Of a DNA stretch of 37,204 nt, positions 5,405 to 26,150 are shown piece by piece. Position 1 is the first letter of the stretch. Each line of letters opens with the position of its first letter. The DNA is from Leptotrichia sp. oral taxon 879 str. F0557. Lineage in GTDB: Bacteria > Fusobacteriota > Fusobacteriia > Fusobacteriales > Leptotrichiaceae. The position numbers and the translations under genes were made by a program. The notes under the pieces were generated by a model, which saw nothing but the letters and a program-made list of their open reading frames with translations, was not told the origin of the DNA and ran no database searches. The DNA lies in NCBI RefSeq assembly GCF_000469385.1, contig NZ_KI271282.1:1-37204 (forward strand), given 5' to 3'.

Positions 5405-6037
5405 ATGAAAAAAGTAGTTATTGGGCTTACAGGTGGAATTGGAACAGGAAAAAGTACAGTTAGTCAAATTTTAAAAGGAAAAAATTTTCCAGTTATTGAT
5501 TTAGACATAATTTCTCATGAAGTTATTAAATTTCCTAAGGTTGTGGAAAAAATTGTAGAAAATTTTGGTAAAGAAGTTTTAGAATATAATAATACTGGAA
5601 ATTGGATTGTTTCACGTGAAAAATTAGGAAGAGTTATTTTTGGAAATAGAGAAAAAAGACTTATTTTAAATTCTGTTATGCATCCAGAGATTTTACGTAT
5701 TATGCGAGAAAAGATTCTGGAGTGTAAAAAAGAAAATAAAATTATTTTTGTGGAAATTCAGCTTCTTTTTGAAGTTCAATGGGAAAAGGAATTTGATTAC
5801 ATTTTGCTAGTAAGTGCAGAAAAAGAAACGCAGATTAAACGTATTTTAGCTAGGGATAACCGTAGTAAAGAAGAGGCTTTGAGTATTATAAATTCACAAA
5901 TGTCTTTGGATGAAAAAAAGAAAAGAAGTGACTATGTTATTGAAAATGACGGAAATATTCAGGATTTGGAAAAAAAAGTTGATGAGTTTTTGAAAAAAAT
6001 AGAATTTGAAAATATACTCAAACCTATTTTAAATTAA
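5405..6037 (+). CDS. coaE: Dephospho-CoA kinase
   Basis: Catalyses the last step of coenzyme A synthesis, phosphorylating the 3' hydroxyl of dephospho-CoA. The 210-residue product carries the P-loop GGIGTGKST at 10-18, the nucleotide-binding segment VIDLDIISHEV, and the motif FVEIQLLFE, where most homologues have VPLLFE. The conserved RxxxRD-like region is ILARDNRS. The ribosome-binding site is GGAAGG. The last seven codons and the stop lie inside repeat copy 1 (6016-6116), so the extreme C-terminus (ILKPILN) is encoded by the repeat. The enzyme core is complete and is expected to work. Confidence 0.94.
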   Translation: MKKVVIGLTGGIGTGKSTVSQILKGKNFPVIDLDIISHEVIKFPKVVEKIVENFGKEVLEYNNTGNWIVSREKLGRVIFGNREKRLILNSVMHPEILRIMREKILECKKENKIIFVEIQLLFEVQWEKEFDYILLVSAEKETQIKRILARDNRSKEEALSIINSQMSLDEKKKRSDYVIENDGNIQDLEKKVDEFLKKIEFENILKPILN

Positions 6038-6116
6038 ACTGCTAAATTATATAAATTTAAGGTTTGAGTAAAATAGTCATAGCTTTTCAGTTTGGTTTTA
6101 AATAAGTTTTACTATA
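6016..6116 (+). repeat. Dispersed pseudoknot-like repeat, copy 1
   Basis: Arms: A ACTCAAACCT 6016-6025, B ATTTTAAATTAAACTG 6026-6041, A' AGGTTTGAGT 6060-6069, B' CAGTTTGGTTTTAAAT 6088-6103, and the end word TTTTACT 6107-6113. A pairs perfectly with A'. B pairs with B' at 15 of 16 positions (two wobbles). Because B lies inside the A-A' hairpin and B' outside it, the pairs interleave. This copy overlaps the end of coaE. The family has four good copies in the window. Confidence 0.85.
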
Positions 6117-6599: not shown

Positions 6600-7397
6600 A
6601 TGAAAAAAGTATTTATAATATTGGGGATATTTTTAGTAGTGCTTATAGGGTGGCTTTCTGTACCATTTAATATTCTTGTTATAGGAGTAGATGCGTATGC
6701 TAATCAGCCGACAGAAGGTTCTCGTAGCGATGGGCTAGTTGTTATAAGAGTTGTGCCTTATCTGGCACAGGTAAAAATGATTTCGATTCCACGTGATACG
6801 TATGCAGAGATTCCTTGTGAAAATTATAAGCAGGATAAAATTACACATTCACATCATTTTGGTGGCGTGCAATGTACAATTGACGCTGTGGAAAACTTTC
6901 TTGATACAAAAATTAATTATCATGTAAGATTTAGATTTGAAGATGTTATGAACTTAACTAATTTGATTGATGGAGTCGATGTTGTTTCAAATCACACTTT
7001 TAATCAGGACTATTTTGATCAGGAAGTATTTCATTTTAATCAAGGTCAAGTTTATAATTTAAGAGGGAGAATGGCACTTGCCTATACAAGACATAGAAAA
7101 AGTGATACAGCCTTTAAGCGTGATGAACGTCAAAGACAGGTTATTCAGGGAATTGTGAAAAAATTAGTCGCACCATCTGGATGGAAATATATTCCAGAAG
7201 TTTATGGATATGCAAAAGAAAAGATGGATGTTGCAGTAAATCCAATTAAAGGATTATCAGTATTACCAGCATTTTTACTAAACAAAAAAATTGAGCAGTA
7301 TGAGATTACTGGAGATGGAAGAATGATTAACGGAATCTGGTACTTTATTCCTGAAGAAACTTCAGTGGAAAATGCAAAAGATGAGTTTAAAAATTAG
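6600..7397 (+). CDS. LytR-CpsA-Psr (LCP) family protein
   Basis: LCP proteins transfer polyprenyl-linked glycopolymers to the cell envelope. The 265-residue product has one N-terminal membrane segment (about 3-23) and an extracytoplasmic LCP domain. Family marks are NILVIGVD (24-31), the acidic/arginine block RSDGLVVIRV (42-51), and ISIPRDT (61-67) with the conserved Arg-Asp. The C-terminal signature AYTRHRKSDTAFKRDERQRQ is also present. The ribosome-binding site is GAGGTG. It is followed after 35 bp by engB, probably in the same transcript. The natural acceptor and polymer cannot be told from sequence. Confidence 0.85.
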   Translation: MKKVFIILGIFLVVLIGWLSVPFNILVIGVDAYANQPTEGSRSDGLVVIRVVPYLAQVKMISIPRDTYAEIPCENYKQDKITHSHHFGGVQCTIDAVENFLDTKINYHVRFRFEDVMNLTNLIDGVDVVSNHTFNQDYFDQEVFHFNQGQVYNLRGRMALAYTRHRKSDTAFKRDERQRQVIQGIVKKLVAPSGWKYIPEVYGYAKEKMDVAVNPIKGLSVLPAFLLNKKIEQYEITGDGRMINGIWYFIPEETSVENAKDEFKN

Positions 7398-8086: not shown

Positions 8087-8194
8087 ATTTTCCTAAATTA
8101 TAAAAAAATCAAATCTAATTTTTAAGTATCCATCTTAAAAACTTTTGTAATTTTATACAAAATAAATTTAATTTCATAAATTTTCTGATTTTAT

Positions 8195-8296
8195 ACTCGA
8201 ACCCATTTAAAATTGAACTACTAGAAATTATATAATTTAGGGTTTGAGTAAAATAGTCATAATTTTTGAATTCTATTTTAAACTAGTTTTACTATG
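8195..8296 (+). repeat. Dispersed pseudoknot-like repeat, copy 2
   Basis: A ACTCGAACCC 8195-8204, B ATTTAAAATTGAACT 8205-8219, A' GGGTTTGAGT 8240-8249, B' AATTCTATTTTAAA 8269-8282, end word TTTTACT 8287-8293. A and A' pair fully with one G-T wobble. B and B' pair with two mismatches, making this the weakest of the four for arm B. The intervening AAATTATATAATTT is itself a perfect palindrome. The copy lies after the engB terminator and before the convergent comM gene. At 8336-8361 a further partial look-alike (ATTCTTTTTTTAAC, then GTTTAGTGCTA) may be a degraded fragment. Confidence 0.85.
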
Positions 8297-15926: not shown

Positions 15927-15984
15927 AAATGTAATTAATATAATTTTATAAAATAAAAAATTGATTATAAGGAGATTATTTAAA

Positions 15985-16854
15985 ATGAAAAAACTTATCG
16001 TATTGGGAACTATTATCGTATCGCTTGCATTAAAAGCTGGATACTTAGAAGATGGAATATCATATTATGAAAATAAAAATTATTTAAAAGCAGAAGAGAT
16101 GTTTTTAAAAGCTGTTCAAGAAAAAGATGGTAAAGTTGAAGCTATGTATAATCTAGGACTTTTGTATCAAGCTCAGAAAAAATTCGATAAGGCTGAGCAG
16201 ATGTATTTAAAAGCTATCCAAAATGGACATATTAAAGCTATGAATAACTTGGGAGTCTTATATTATGAACAAAAAAAATTTGATAAGGCTGAGCAGATGT
16301 ATTTAGAAGCTGTAGAAAATAACAACGTTGAAGCTATGAATAATTTAGGAAATTTATACAAAGATCAGAAAAAATTTGATAAGGCTGAACAGATATATCT
16401 AAAAGCTAGTCAAAAAGGTTATGTTGCGGCTATGAACAGTTTAGGAGTTTTGTATTATGATCAAAAAAAATTTGATAAGGCTGAACAAATGTATTTAAGA
16501 GCTAGTCAGCAAGGTTCAATTTTTGCCATATACAATTTGGGAAACCTATATTATTATCAAAAGAAATTTGATAAAGCTGAACAAATGTTTTTAAAAGCTA
16601 GTCAAGAGGGTGAAGTTGAAGCTATATATAATCTAGGGGTTTTATATTATGAACAAAAAAAATTCGACAAAGCTAAACAAATGTTTTTAAAAGCTATAGA
16701 AAAAGGACATATTAAGGCTACATACAACCTAGGAGTCTTGTATTATTACCAAGATAACCGTGTCAATGCAAAAAAATATATAAAAATGGCATCAGATGCA
16801 GGATATGAAGAAGCTCGGGAACTTTATAGAAAAATGTTACAGGCAGGATACTAA
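15985..16854 (+). CDS. Exported TPR/Sel1-like 32-residue-repeat protein
   Basis: 289 residues with a signal peptide (MKKLIVLGTIIVSLALKAGY) and then almost only repeats. There are about seven 32-residue units of the form AEQMYLKA..G.I.AM.NLG.LYYEQKKFDK and a final partial unit. The pattern is that of TPR/Sel1-like helical repeats, usually a protein-binding scaffold, probably periplasmic. AAGGAG lies 9 nt before the ATG at 15985; an in-frame TTG at 15961 is upstream of that site. The units are also very alike in DNA (96-bp period), so repeat number may vary between strains. Its partner is unknown. Confidence 0.8.
   Translation: MKKLIVLGTIIVSLALKAGYLEDGISYYENKNYLKAEEMFLKAVQEKDGKVEAMYNLGLLYQAQKKFDKAEQMYLKAIQNGHIKAMNNLGVLYYEQKKFDKAEQMYLEAVENNNVEAMNNLGNLYKDQKKFDKAEQIYLKASQKGYVAAMNSLGVLYYDQKKFDKAEQMYLRASQQGSIFAIYNLGNLYYYQKKFDKAEQMFLKASQEGEVEAIYNLGVLYYEQKKFDKAKQMFLKAIEKGHIKATYNLGVLYYYQDNRVNAKKYIKMASDAGYEEARELYRKMLQAGY
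16063..16770 (+). repeat. Tandem 96-bp coding repeats
   Basis: Near-identical words recur every 96 bp, for example AAATTTGATAAGGCTGA and AACAAATGTATTTAA. They encode the 32-residue helical units of the exported protein. Such arrays can expand or contract by slippage. Confidence 0.75.
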
Positions 16855-17354: not shown

Positions 17355-18719
17355 ATGAATTTATTACCTGATGAGATACTGGAAACTATAGATATGGTAG
17401 AAATGCAGCACCTTGATGTGAGAACCGTCACAATGGGAATAAGCCTGCTTGACTGCATTGATGCAGATGCCGAAAAAACAGCAGAAAATATTTATAACAA
17501 AATTACGGAAAATGGAAAAGATTTGGTAAAAATCGCTGATGAAGTAGCAAGCAAATATAATATGCCAATTATTAACAAAAGAGTTTCGGTTACTCCAATT
17601 TCAATAATTGGAAATGCAACTAATGCCGAAGATTACACAATTTTTGCAAAAGCACTGGATAGAGCGGCAAAAACAATAGGAATTGACTTTATTGGAGGAT
17701 TTTCGGCACTTGTGGACAAAGGTTTTACAAAAGGGGATGTTAAGCTGATAAACAGTATTCCGAAGGCGCTTTCTGAAACAGACAGAGTTTGCTCCTCTGT
17801 AAATGTAGGCTCTACAAAGTCAGGAATCAACTTGGATGCTGTAAAAATGATGGGAAAAACTGTAAAGGAATTGGCTGAACTTTCCAAAGATGCAGACGGA
17901 TTGGCAGCCGCCAAATTTGTCGTATTTACAAATGCTGTTCCTGATAATCCGTTTATGGCAGGTGCATTTCATGGGGTAGAAAATCCAGATGTTGTGCTAA
18001 ACGTTGGAATTAGTGGTCCAGGGGTTGTAAGACACACACTTGCTAACATTTCAAAAACGGCAAAAATTGATGAAATAACAGAAGCAATAAAAAAAGTAAG
18101 TTTTAAAATCACAAGAATGGGAGAATTAATTGGAAAAGAAGTTGCTGAAAGACTTGGGGTTGAATTTGGAATAATTGACTTGTCACTTGCACCAACTCCA
18201 GCAGTAGGCGATAGTGTTGGAAATGTACTGGAGGAATTTGGACTGGAAGCAGTCGGAGCTTATGGAACAACACTTGCACTTGCAATATTGAATGACGCTG
18301 TAAAAAAAGGCGGAGCAATGGCTGCAACTCGTGTTGGTGGCTTAACAGGGGCATTTATCCCAGTAAGTGAAGATCAGGGAATGATAGAAGCTACAAGCAA
18401 AGGATATTTGACACTTGAAAAACTGGAGGCGATGACTTGTGTATGTTCTGTCGGACTTGATATGATAGCTATTCCAGGTGATACCTCAGAAGCTGTAATT
18501 TCTGGAATAATAGCAGATGAAATGGCAATCGGAATGGTAAACAGTAAAACTACCGCAGTTAGAATAATCCCAGTTCCTGGAAAAAAAGCTGGCGATAGAA
18601 TAGTGTTTGGAGGACTTCTAGGAGAAGCAGATATTATAAATATAAATAATTTAGATTGCTCTGTGCTAATTAATCGTGGTGGAAAAGTAGCTCCCCCAAT
18701 TCAGGCATTAAAAAATTAA
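17355..18719 (+). CDS. PFL family protein, UPF0210 (DUF711)
   Basis: The 454-residue product matches the UPF0210 family throughout: [20 protein letters not shown] near the start, [41 protein letters not shown] and the C-terminal [16 protein letters not shown]. The family is distantly related to the pyruvate formate-lyase fold, but its reaction is unknown. It has a strong AGGAGG ribosome-binding site. It is co-transcribed with the upstream ACT protein and followed by repeat copy 3 and then a terminator. Confidence 0.92.
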
Positions 18720-18730
18720 TTTAAAAATAT

Positions 18731-18834
18731 ATTCGAACCCATTTAAAACCGAACTATTGAAAATTATATAAATTTAGGGTTTGAGTAAAATAGTCATAGC
18801 CTTTTAAGTTCGGCTTTAAAGCGGTTTTACTATA
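18731..18834 (+). repeat. Dispersed pseudoknot-like repeat, copy 3
   Basis: A ATTCGAACCC 18731-18740, B ATTTAAAACCGAACT 18741-18755, A' GGGTTTGAGT 18777-18786, B' AGTTCGGCTTTAAA 18807-18820, end word TTTTACT 18825-18831. This copy is the best evidence for the B-B' pairing: B has CCG where copies 2 and 4 have TTG, and B' has CGG opposite. It starts 12 bp after the UPF0210 stop and lies before the terminator, so it should be in that mRNA. Confidence 0.87.
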
Positions 18835-18850
18835 CAACAAATAAAAAATG

Positions 18851-18912: not shown

Positions 18913-19482
18913 ATGTATCATATAAAAGATGAAGAATTTTTAAGAGGAAAAGTTCCTATGACAAAAGAGGAAATCCGTTTTGTAAGCCTTGGGAAAATGG
19001 AGATGAAAGATGATGATATTTGTCTTGACATTGGTGGTGGAACTGGTTCTGTAAGTATGGAAATGGCAAGATTTGCACGAAACGGAAAAGTTTTTGTAAT
19101 TGAGAGAAATGATGAGGCAGTTGAGCTGATTCATAAAAATAAAGAAAAATTTGGATTAGAAAATCTTAATATAATAAAAGGAATGGCTCCAGATGGACTA
19201 AAAGATTTAAATACAAAATTTAATAAAATTTTTATTGGAGGTTCTGCTGGAAATCTGGTGGAAATTATAAAATATTCTTATGATAACCTTATTGAAGATG
19301 GAATTTTAGTATTAAACTTTATCGTACTGGAAAATATATCTACGGCTGTTGAGGAACTTAAAAAATATAATTTTAAAGATGTGGATATTTGTCAGATTAT
19401 CGTAAGTAAAAACAGAAAAGTTAAGGATTTTAATATGATGATGGCAGAAAATCCAATTTATGTGATTACTGCGAAGAAATAG
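18913..19482 (+). CDS. cbiT: Cobalt-precorrin-6B C15-methyltransferase (decarboxylating), CbiT
   Basis: SAM-dependent enzyme of the anaerobic cobalamin pathway that methylates C15 and removes the C12 acetate carboxylate. The 189-residue product begins with the CbiT-like YHIKDEEFLRGKVPMTKEEIR. SAM motif I (LDIGGGTGSVS) is at 38-48 and the substrate-site segment FIGGSAGNL at about 111-119. The C-terminus DFNMMMAENPIYVITAKK is typical. The AAGGAG ribosome-binding site is well placed. The last ~42 bp of this gene recur at 20790-20831. The other cbi genes here, cbiG and cbiH, are 4.5 kb downstream. Confidence 0.9.
   Translation: MYHIKDEEFLRGKVPMTKEEIRFVSLGKMEMKDDDICLDIGGGTGSVSMEMARFARNGKVFVIERNDEAVELIHKNKEKFGLENLNIIKGMAPDGLKDLNTKFNKIFIGGSAGNLVEIIKYSYDNLIEDGILVLNFIVLENISTAVEELKKYNFKDVDICQIIVSKNRKVKDFNMMMAENPIYVITAKK
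19440..19481 (+). repeat. Direct repeat, left copy (cbiT 3' end)
   Basis: The 32 bp starting GATGGCAGAAAATCC and ending GATTACTG are identical to 20790-20821. Two mismatches and then eight more identical bases (AAGAAATA) follow. The left copy is the genuine end of cbiT. Confidence 0.9.
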
Positions 19483-19620
19483 TGATAGATTGTATAATAA
19501 AATGCAAAAAATTTATTACAAAATTGTGTGTATTTACAAAAATATGTTATCGTGTTATTATATTATATATGAGTTATCAAAAAATTTAGAATATGATAAT
19601 TTATAAAGAAAATAATGTAA

Positions 19621-19725
19621 ACACCTGTAAAAGCATTGGCTCAAAGTGTTCCAAATGTTATGATGAATGGGCATCAGGATTGGTAGAGCGGACTAGTTAA
19701 ATTTGCAAAAGGAGAAATAAAATAA
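19621..19725 (+). pseudogene. 3' remnant of a gene upstream of the dehydrogenase
   Basis: Reading from 19621 gives TPVKALAQSVPNVMMNGHQD, then W, a TAG stop, and SGLVKFAKGEIK ending in TAA at 19723-19725. That stop overlaps the next ATG as TAATG, the usual coupling of operon genes. A TAA stands immediately before 19621 and no start is visible. This looks like the tail of a lost gene with a nonsense change at 19684. I do not recognise the family. Confidence 0.5.
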
Positions 19726-20587
19726 TGGCTAAAATAGGTTGGATAGAATTAGGACAAATGGGGACTCCTATGGTAAAAATTTATTAAAAGCTTCTGTTGA
19801 TGTGACAGTTTACAATAGAAATTTTGATAAAACTGTACCACTTGTAGAAAAAGGAGCTAAAAACACAAAAAATGTAGAAGAAATTTTTGAACAAAATGAC
19901 ATTATATTTTTTATGATTTCAAATTATAATGCGGCATTAGAAATTTTAAATGAAAATGTCTTATCAAAAATAAAAGGAAAAAAAATAGTAAATATGAGCA
20001 CAATTTCACCTACTGAAAGTAAAGCTGTAGGAAAACTTGTTATTGAAAATAATGGAAAGTATATTGAAGCACCAGTATCTGGATCAGTAGGAGCTGCTAC
20101 TGCTGGAGTTTTATTAATATTAGCTGGAGGAAATGAAGCTGATACTAAAGATTTATATTCAATTTTTGATATTTTAGGAAGTAAAACATATTATTTTGGA
20201 GAATTAGGAAAAGCAACTGGAGCAAAATTAGTATTAAATTCTTTACTTGGAATATTTGGAGAAGCTTATAGTGAAGTATTATTATTAGCACAAAATTTTG
20301 GAATAGATACAGAAACTATTGTAAATGCTATTTCAGATTCTAGAATGAGTTCGCCACTATTTCAGGAAAAAAAAGATATGTTTACAAACAGAGAATACCC
20401 TGCGGCATTTATGCTTAAACATATGACAAAAGACTTGAAATTATCAAATGAAGAAATCGAAAATAGAAAATTATCATTACAACTAATTCAAAATACAACT
20501 AAAAATTATTCAGAAGCATTAGAACAAGGTTATGGAGAACAAGATATGGCAGCTATTTTTGAAATCTTAAATAAGAAAAATGATTAA
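19725..20587 (+). pseudogene. Frameshifted 3-hydroxyisobutyrate dehydrogenase-like gene
   Basis: Beta-hydroxyacid dehydrogenase family (NAD(P)-dependent oxidation of 3-hydroxy acids). The natural start is the ATG at 19725, after AAAGGAG, giving MAKIGWIELGQMGTPMVK. One A is missing from the run at 19775-19779, so that frame stops at 19788. The rest of the protein continues in the next frame as NLLKASVDVTVYNRN and on to the stop at 20587. The first glycine of the nucleotide-binding GLGxMG is also changed to Glu (ELGQMG). The remainder is well kept: APVSGSVGAATAG and the catalytic-lysine segment GATGAKLVLNSLLG. An alternative TTG start at 19739 would lack the Rossmann loop. A homopolymer sequencing error is possible but would not explain the Glu. 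Confidence 0.75.
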
Positions 20588-20606
20588 TTAAAAGATAGGA
20601 AATCGT

Positions 20607-20700
20607 AAAATTATTAAAAATAAAACTTTTTCTTTTATTATCAATTTTTATATTTACTTTAAAGGCTGATTCTATATTTATTAGAACAAAGTGAAAATGT
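20607..20700 (+). pseudogene. Possible remnant of an exported-protein gene
   Basis: The stretch reads KLFLLLSIFIFTLKADSIF and then stops at 20691-20693. It resembles a signal peptide, but there is no ATG, no ribosome-binding site and no continuing frame. The sequence up to 20789 has several stops in each frame. It is probably debris between the two direct repeats. Confidence 0.25.
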
Positions 20701-20789
20701 AATATTGAAGAAGAATTCAATTATGAATAAAGGTGTAATTGAGTTTAAAAAAGATGAAGAACTGTAACTTTTAAGACAAACAGTATAAA

Positions 20790-20831
20790 GATGGCAGAAA
20801 ATCCAATTTATGTGATTACTGTAAAGAAATA
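20790..20831 (+). repeat. Direct repeat, right copy (cbiT tail duplicate)
   Basis: A duplicate of 19440-19481, offset by 1350 bp: 40 of 42 bases identical, but with no cbiT body before it. It marks the right side of the dehydrogenase-remnant segment. Confidence 0.9.
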
Positions 20832-20851
20832 ATAAATAAAAATAATAATTT

Positions 20852-20916
20852 AAATTTGTGTAAAACTCTGAAAAGATATTTATTTATCAAGAATAATCAG
20901 AGAATTACACAAATTT
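20852..20916. terminator. Long bidirectional hairpin terminator
   Basis: AAATTTGTGTAAAACTCTGA (20852-20871) pairs with TCAGAGAATTACACAAATTT (20897-20916) at 18 of 20 positions, followed by TTT on the plus strand. It lies just past the stop of the minus-strand exported-protein gene. Confidence 0.75.
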
Positions 20917-20922
20917 TTTATA

Positions 20923-21549
20923 TTATTTAATTTTATACACTTTACCAAATGACATTCCTACACCTTGATTTGAAATATCCCATCCATTCTTAGTCTTGCT
21001 TAACATTACAAAACCTGAGTTTTTCTTATATGTTTTAATTTTTGTAATTTCAGTATGAGCTACATCTGCTGTAATAGAAAAAACATCTTTTAAGTACAAT
21101 TGTTCCTGAATTTTTGATGAAGATTTTTTTGAAATTTCGCTAATATTAAATCCATATTTTTGTTTAAATTTAAATCCAATAGTTTTAATAATAGCATTGT
21201 AATCTCTTTCAGAAAGATTTTTTACATTCGATTCATAAGAAACGGCTGCAACTGTATTAGAACGATATTCAATTTTCGTAATTATAAAAGAAGCGTCTTT
21301 AAACTGCTCTTCCATTAAAATTTTCATCACTTTAACTTCGTTTGGAGAAGAAAAGCCTAAAAACGCCGTAACCTCTTCGTCTGTAACTTGAAATAAATTT
21401 TCTGGACTTAGCAGCTTTTCAATTTGAGCATTATTTTTTTGCAATTCACTTTCACTAAGGCTGACTTTATTACTGCGAAAAACAGGATAACTGAATAAGA
21501 ATGAAGATATAGCAAAAGTCAAAATAGCTATCAGTAATTTATTTTTCAT
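20923..21549 (-). CDS. Exported protein of unknown function
   Basis: 208 residues. A signal peptide is evident (MKNKLLIAILTFAISSFLFS, cleavage near residue 20), so the product is exported, probably periplasmic. The mature part mixes charged helices (LSESELQKNNAQIEKLLSPE) with strands, and a C-terminal segment TKIKTYKKNSGFVMLSKTKNGW suggests a small beta-sheet domain resembling uncharacterised NTF2-like proteins. I do not recognise a family. It is a single gene with its own promoter at 21590-21617 and a terminator. The upstream region AATTTTTATG has a weak ribosome-binding site (GCGAG). Confidence 0.7.
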   Translation of the reverse strand: MKNKLLIAILTFAISSFLFSYPVFRSNKVSLSESELQKNNAQIEKLLSPENLFQVTDEEVTAFLGFSSPNEVKVMKILMEEQFKDASFIITKIEYRSNTVAAVSYESNVKNLSERDYNAIIKTIGFKFKQKYGFNISEISKKSSSKIQEQLYLKDVFSITADVAHTEITKIKTYKKNSGFVMLSKTKNGWDISNQGVGMSFGKVYKIK

Positions 21550-21589
21550 AAAAATTCTCGCTTTCTATTTTTGATTTATAACTACGTTA

Positions 21590-21617
21590 ATTATAGCATA
21601 TTATTTTTGAAAAACAA
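21590..21617 (-). promoter_or_regulatory. Promoter of the exported-protein gene
   Basis: On the minus strand, TTGTTT (21617-21612), a 16-nt spacer and TATAAT (21595-21590), 40 bp before the ATG at 21549. Confidence 0.55.
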
Positions 21618-25961: not shown

Positions 25962-25998
25962 TACTTTTTAAAAAGTTAGAAACAAAATTTGAGAATAT

Positions 25999-26100
25999 AC
26001 TCGAATCCATTTAAAATTGAACTGCTAGAAATTATATAATTTAGGGTTTGAGTAAAATAGTCATAATTTTTGAGTTCTGTTTTAAACTAGTTTTACTATA
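25999..26100 (+). repeat. Dispersed pseudoknot-like repeat, copy 4
   Basis: A ACTCGAATCC 25999-26008, B ATTTAAAATTGAACT 26009-26023, A' GGGTTTGAGT 26044-26053, B' AGTTCTGTTTTAAA 26073-26086, end word TTTTACT 26091-26097. A-A' pairs fully (two wobbles); B-B' pairs at 13 of 14 positions. It lies between the cbiH stop and the terminator at 26112, so it should be in the cbiH mRNA. Confidence 0.87.
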
Positions 26101-26111
26101 TTTATAAAATA

Positions 26112-26150
26112 AAAAAATTGGACTACCATATATTAAGTTAGTCCATTTTT
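26112..26150. terminator. Bidirectional terminator between cbiH and DUF956 gene
   Basis: TGGACTA (26119-26125) and TAGTCCA (26139-26145) form a perfect 7-bp stem with A's on the left and T's on the right. It serves convergent transcripts. Confidence 0.8.

Follow-up and report, generated by a model that had tools for sequence, protein, structure and literature searches.

How did the end of cbiT come to stand at two places in a Leptotrichia genome, with decayed genes between them, and which of the two ends is the original? The question was addressed in one contig (C2) of a genome of 79 contigs (G000); the whole analysed stretch of 37,204 nucleotides is called the window. The counts given below rest on 13 Leptotrichia genomes, one per species. 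The nearest relative of G000 in this set is G008, with 97.0% identity across rpoB and gyrB. The DNA between the two cbiT ends (tails) is called the segment, and G000, G001, G005, G007 and G009 are its carriers; G005 and G007, whose cbiT is only about 70% identical to that of G000, are termed type II carriers. G009 is a mosaic of two distant Leptotrichia groups, its rpoB being nearest to G011 (94.4%) and its gyrB nearest to G012 (93.3%), so the word sister applies to it loosely.

The features of the locus, by position in the window, are:

18913-19482, + strand: cbiT, intact, 189 aa
19434-19481, + strand: cbiT tail, copy 1 (core 19440-19481)
19483-19525, + strand: IS30-like end sequence abutting the cbiT stop, a repeat of about 40 bp scattered through Leptotrichia genomes
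19621-19725, + strand: remnant of an SRPBCC-type gene, its last 34 codons, with one internal stop
19725-20587, + strand: dehydrogenase pseudogene of the 3-hydroxyisobutyrate dehydrogenase / 2-hydroxy-3-oxopropionate reductase superfamily, with a 1-bp deletion near 19775
20588-20789, + strand: broken, fragmentary small gene, signal-peptide-like
20784-20831, + strand: cbiT tail, copy 2 (core 20790-20831), read as the resident tail in its native place
20852-20916, no strand assigned: terminator-like hairpin, native to cbiT and shared with the convergent gene
20923-21549, - strand: convergent gene for a 208-aa secreted-type protein

The repeated end of cbiT

The gene scores 119.4 bits against the CbiT model TIGR02469 (cut-off 78.3). 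Its tail and the downstream copy are identical at 44 of 48 positions and start 1350 bp apart; the 42-bp cores agree at 40 of 42 positions, the longest stretch free of mismatches being 32 bp. The repeat of 42 bp that had been described from the sequence alone is borne out, 1350 bp being the spacing of the cores and 1308 bp the length of DNA between them. When copy 2 was compared with the whole genome the match had E = 1.5e-13, so the repeat did not arise by chance; it is real and statistically secure. No third copy of the tail was found in the G000 genome. The next match has E of about 0.04, which indicates that the tail, with its two copies, is not a dispersed repeat family, and a further match of 29 bp belongs to another part of cbiT. 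The possibility, raised in the sequence-only reading, that the second copy is one of a widespread repeat was thereby removed.

Native context of the downstream copy

Copy 1 is followed by the 43-bp IS30-like end and then the segment, and copy 2 by the hairpin at 20852-20916. This hairpin was found by folding (z = -4.6 on the + strand and -5.9 on the - strand); a simple terminator scan listed none. In three genomes that lack the segment (G008, G010 and G011) the hairpin sequence lies directly 3′ of the cbiT stop, and in G006, which is also free of the segment, it follows after an altered spacer. The gene convergent with cbiT matches no family and is also present in G006 and G009.

A comparison with relatives lacking the segment had been proposed as a check on the repeat. 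When the flanks in G000 were joined across the tails, the resulting sequence aligned through the junction to G008 with 95.5% identity over 242 bp and a single gap position. Its identity was 90.1% to G011 and 89.1% to G010, and it reproduced the arrangement of all three. Copy 2 leads into the hairpin found immediately after cbiT in these relatives, and by this alignment the downstream copy is the native cbiT tail.

Contents of the segment

The genes between the tails had been called decayed, and this holds: the dehydrogenase is frameshifted, and the SRPBCC-type gene and the small gene survive only as remnants. The dehydrogenase is the sole frame of at least 60 aa within the segment, which contains no integrase or transposase frame. 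An open frame of 282 aa (19739-20587) matches NAD_binding_2 and NAD_binding_11 over the cut-off; both domains of the 3-hydroxyisobutyrate dehydrogenase superfamily are present, placing the pseudogene in that superfamily, and none of the NCBIfam equivalog models was matched over its cut-off. Owing to the 1-bp deletion, the beginning of the gene lies in a different frame. Its G+C content is 27%, against 28% for the window. Among the Leptotrichia copies, most differences affect the third position of a codon (4, 6 and 18 by codon position for G000 and G001), and among six pairs only G009 and G005 show an even distribution (5, 3 and 6). This bias towards the third position suggests that the dehydrogenase gene was probably working until recently.

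The SRPBCC remnant matches jhp0584 of Helicobacter pylori (PDB 4r7k, E 2e-8) and a Priestia SRPBCC protein (54% over 26 aa), and its 34 residues gave no match in Pfam or NCBIfam. On the Priestia plasmid, an SRPBCC gene lies directly before a related dehydrogenase gene, an order that makes the segment look like the relic of a two-gene unit. No SRPBCC gene match was found before the dehydrogenase gene of the Neisseria relative.

Intact dehydrogenase genes were sought in 98 genomes of the phylum (E ≤ 1e-40), and matches were obtained only in G000, G001, G005 and G009; in a set of 30 relatives, the shorter remnant of G007 was also picked up, and the dehydrogenase matches in G020 and G026 are about 26% identical. 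A plasmid collection contained 1889 matching records, all below 60% identity, the best being two chromosome-size Neisseria gonorrhoeae records filed as plasmids (52.9%) and the Priestia plasmid (46.0%). Taken together, the phylum and plasmid searches make an origin outside the phylum likely, from an untraced source.

The 43-bp sequence at the left edge abuts the cbiT stop in G000, G001 and G009. We take it to be an IS30-like end from the way in which neighbouring frames read. Among its copies, which include those at loci L053-L076, some adjoin a transposase-like frame and several do not; next to the L061 copy is a frame with a match to the rve integrase core, and the frame next to the L062 copy has no match in Pfam. 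At the opposite edge, a composite search for the small gene together with the tail returned only G000 and G009 (2 of 30 genomes), the two genomes in which the small gene is found. The reading frame of the last piece of the small gene continues into the cbiT tail; a single functional frame fused from the two was considered and rejected, as stops are present.

Occurrence of the segment and of second tails

The segment occurs in 5 of the 13 genomes, always behind cbiT and always broken, and in G007 it is internally deleted. G003 has part of the upstream flank only. A second cbiT tail is present in three genomes (G000, G009 and G006) and brackets the segment in two of them (G000 and G009); among the 13, the right junction and spacing of G000 recur only in G009. 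The sequence-only reading had held that the same arrangement between unrelated flanks would count against it. In G009 the immediate flanks are the same and the wider neighbourhood is different. G001 carries the segment without copy 2, a state that could either precede the scar or result from a later deletion.

The dehydrogenase genes of G000 and G005 are 95% alike and their cbiT bodies 70.6% alike. The left flank in the type II carriers is only 70-75% like that of G000, which suggests that the position of the segment behind cbiT may be older than the transfers discussed below, and that these may have been later replacements.

The second tail of G006 is of another kind. This relic consists of some 60 bp from the end of cbiT together with the sequence that follows it (G006 contig C1, tail at 488922-488985; about 6870-6986 on the - strand of locus L121), and the complete cbiT of this genome lies 54 kb away. 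The left neighbour of the relic matches G010 to just before the cbiT block, and on its right is the sequence that follows cbiT in G010; by comparison with G010, about 5 kb is gone, including nearly all of cbiT, and about 20 bp of unmatched sequence stands at the join. G006 therefore appears to have lost cbiT from the relic site and carries it elsewhere, with a breakpoint that differs from that of G000 and G009. A relic at a former cbiT site with its own breakpoint speaks against a fixed attachment site.

Discordant histories and the left crossover

By cbiT identity, G000 is closest to G008 (97.4%, compared with 93.7% to G001) and G009 to G011 (98.4%, compared with 90.7% to G000). On these values cbiT follows the species, and its body is native. 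Carriers resemble one another more closely in the segment than in cbiT: G000 and G001 differ at 34 of 1103 positions in the segment (3.1%) and 36 of 570 in cbiT (6.3%; p = 0.003), and G000 and G009 at 68 of 1299 (5.2%) and 53 of 570 (9.3%; p = 0.0015), p values that ignore linkage and the differing constraint on the two regions.

The last 200 bp of cbiT were compared in seven genomes, with positions counted back from the end of the gene. At -86, -84 and -81 G000 has the base of G008 rather than that of G001, and -81 is the final site of the series. Closer to the end, G000 and G001 alone have C at -69 and a TAG stop, where the other five, G008 included, have T and TAA. This one comparison, with its two shared sites, places the left crossover in the terminal 81 bp of cbiT, repeat included. 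G001 also has private differences at -70 and -62; either these bound the exchange, in which case the crossover would fall in the last 62 bp and the agreement at -69 would be a coincidence, or they are later private changes. The tail of G009 looks native to -48 and probably to -27, which would put its crossover nearer the stop or make the transfer older.

The greater likeness of the segment than of cbiT between carriers, together with a crossover at the end of cbiT, points to a probable transfer of the segment from one lineage to another, with recombination in the cbiT tail and the resident tail left behind on the downstream side.

A probable recombination scar behind cbiT

The explanation that best accounts for the locus as a whole, and which we hold with reasonable though not strong confidence, is a scar left behind cbiT by recombination between Leptotrichia lineages. 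Homology within the final ~81 bp of cbiT would have served to join the left end of the incoming segment, so that the gene kept its native body and gained the final bases of the donor. The last 42-48 bp of the resident gene would have stayed with the terminator to the right of the insert as copy 2; on the same explanation, and with the same degree of confidence in the whole, copy 2 is inert and decaying. At the first right-hand join, the end of the small broken gene would have been fused to the resident cbiT at a point 42-48 bp short of the cbiT 3′ end. We infer that this join was probably illegitimate, much as in homology-facilitated illegitimate recombination (HFIR), and that it took place during DNA uptake. 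A donor with an unjoined right flank was not found. Once formed, the tail-segment-tail structure could have spread by homology on both sides.

The terminator of cbiT now lies 1.35 kb downstream of the gene, and termination may be affected. Excision of the segment by recombination between the tails is possible, and a collapse of the repeat from the state seen in G000 would yield the arrangement of the relatives; an excised form of G000 itself was not observed. The locus is best read as an ordinary scar of recombination that shows no sign of functioning today. An exchange of genes among Leptotrichia species can be read from it, one in which a short gene end would have served as the recombination arm and the resident end remains as the marker.

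Alternative explanations

The sequence-only reading had offered two routes to the repeat. Insertion by homologous recombination is the better supported, by the different histories and the crossover; duplication followed by deletion is less so, and draws on the relic in G006. Loss of a former second cbiT is nevertheless the main rival for the right side of the locus. A second cbiT, alone or with an upstream gene, would have lain downstream and lost everything but its last 42-48 bp and the terminator. G006 shows that loss of a cbiT can spare its tail while a complete gene exists elsewhere, and copy 2 does carry changes, among them a 4-bp gap in G009. However, the cbiT sequence at copy 2 is limited to 48 bp, no longer second copy adjoins the segment in any of the 13 genomes, and duplication and deletion alone would not account for the discordant histories of the segment and cbiT. 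This route is accordingly given a minor but appreciable share of the probability.

A more speculative reading, for which we would claim rather little, makes the cbiT tail a recurring docking point: a segment bracketed by tails would act as a cassette, able to leave, or to enter the corresponding site of another species, by ordinary homologous recombination and without an integrase. The rearrangement in G006, which independently broke within the cbiT tail too, is part of this reading.

An ancestral tail-segment-tail structure, lost repeatedly by excision between the 42-bp repeats in the segment-free relatives, is unlikely. The collapsed repeat does correspond to the arrangement of G008, G010 and G011, and G000 and G009 share a junction that is missing from their closest relatives by cbiT (G008 and G011). 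Against this, several independent and precise losses would be needed, and a vertically inherited pseudogene should diverge at least as much as cbiT, whereas the segment diverges less, an argument that is softened if the gene was under selection until recently.

It is very unlikely that an IS30-like element carried the segment or fused it to the cbiT stop. The IS30-like end at the left edge in three carriers suits such an event, but inspection of the right edge by eye showed no matching end and the segment holds no transposase frame, so the element would explain the left edge at best and leave copy 2 unexplained. Inverted ends on both sides with a short target duplication, as for an IS or composite transposon, are not found here, where the repeat is 42 bp. 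The target duplications of IS30 are a few bases long, far shorter than this.

Site-specific integration, in which the tails would be attachment sites of an element that targeted the 3′ end of cbiT and lost its integrase, is the least credible of all: the layout does resemble attL and attR at a gene 3′ end with the gene restored, but the dehydrogenase is the only sizeable frame in the segment, the tails of 42-48 bp in G000 and G009 and the relic of about 60 bp with a different break in G006 do not share a fixed core, viral contigs contained no match to the tail as an exact degenerate pattern, and 19482-21600 had no match in a phage collection.

Gene order and surroundings

The suggestion that the segment explains the separation of cbiT from cbiG and cbiH was unsupported. 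The segment accounts for 1.3 kb of the 4.6-kb interval that separates cbiT from cbiG in G000, the segment-free G006 still has other genes between them, and unrelated genes follow cbiT in the segment-free G008, G010 and G011. Among the 13 neighbourhoods only that of G004 has cbiT directly before cbiH.

Several other features of the window were recorded. An interspersed repeat of about 105-140 bp, with at least 40 matches in the genome from the scoring of 40 of 124 candidates, is present at 5997-6116, 8192-8295, 18718-18848 and 25980-26120; cbiT is immediately preceded, and cbiH immediately followed, by a copy, and the copy at 18718 folds as a long hairpin (z -2.6). An Rfam search of the window gave no match, and no tRNA was found in it. 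A TPR gene built of 96-bp DNA repeats (15961-16854) encodes 297 aa, and the matching frames in G009 and G010 are shorter (213 and 129 aa), so the number of TPR repeats varies. At the contig end, 33544-37048 holds a phage-type (tyrosine) integrase, a Rep_1 replication protein and a Cro/CI-type HTH regulator together, and is possibly an integrated plasmid-like element.

Comparison with known systems

Among the open-licence Leptotrichia papers listed, no title or abstract opening concerned this locus. At the gene-end attachment sites of integrative elements, a direct repeat of the gene 3′ end brackets acquired DNA and the gene stays intact. The cbiT locus is similar in that a repeat of the 3′ end brackets an acquired segment and cbiT is intact; it differs in having no integrase, in the other breakpoint of G006 and in the lack of a match in the viral pattern scan or the phage collection. 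Relics of gene tails can help to orient transfers, and can be mistaken for attachment sites or for repeats with a function.

In HFIR the illegitimate join usually involves 3-10 bp of microhomology. As outlined in one account, HFIR in naturally transformable bacteria makes a homologous join on one side and an illegitimate join on the other, and its products generally lose recipient DNA of a size similar to that gained (PMC3240628). The likeness lies in an insert beside a conserved gene, with a homologous left join, for which two shared sites speak, and a right join that we infer to be illegitimate. It differs in that no coupled deletion is seen, the resident tail and hairpin being kept and the cbiT body native, and in the retention of 42 bp that overlap the target gene. 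By analogy, the locus may work like HFIR; it is not a proven HFIR product.

The contents of the segment also have a counterpart. H. pylori jhp0585 is described as a homologue of 3-hydroxyisobutyrate dehydrogenase that is present in some strains and absent from others (PMC3120642). With jhp0584 matched by the SRPBCC remnant, the same two-gene unit is likely to exist in H. pylori as jhp0584/jhp0585, their adjacency being read from the locus numbers. The distribution is patchy in both organisms, and in Leptotrichia all five copies found are broken and lie behind cbiT.
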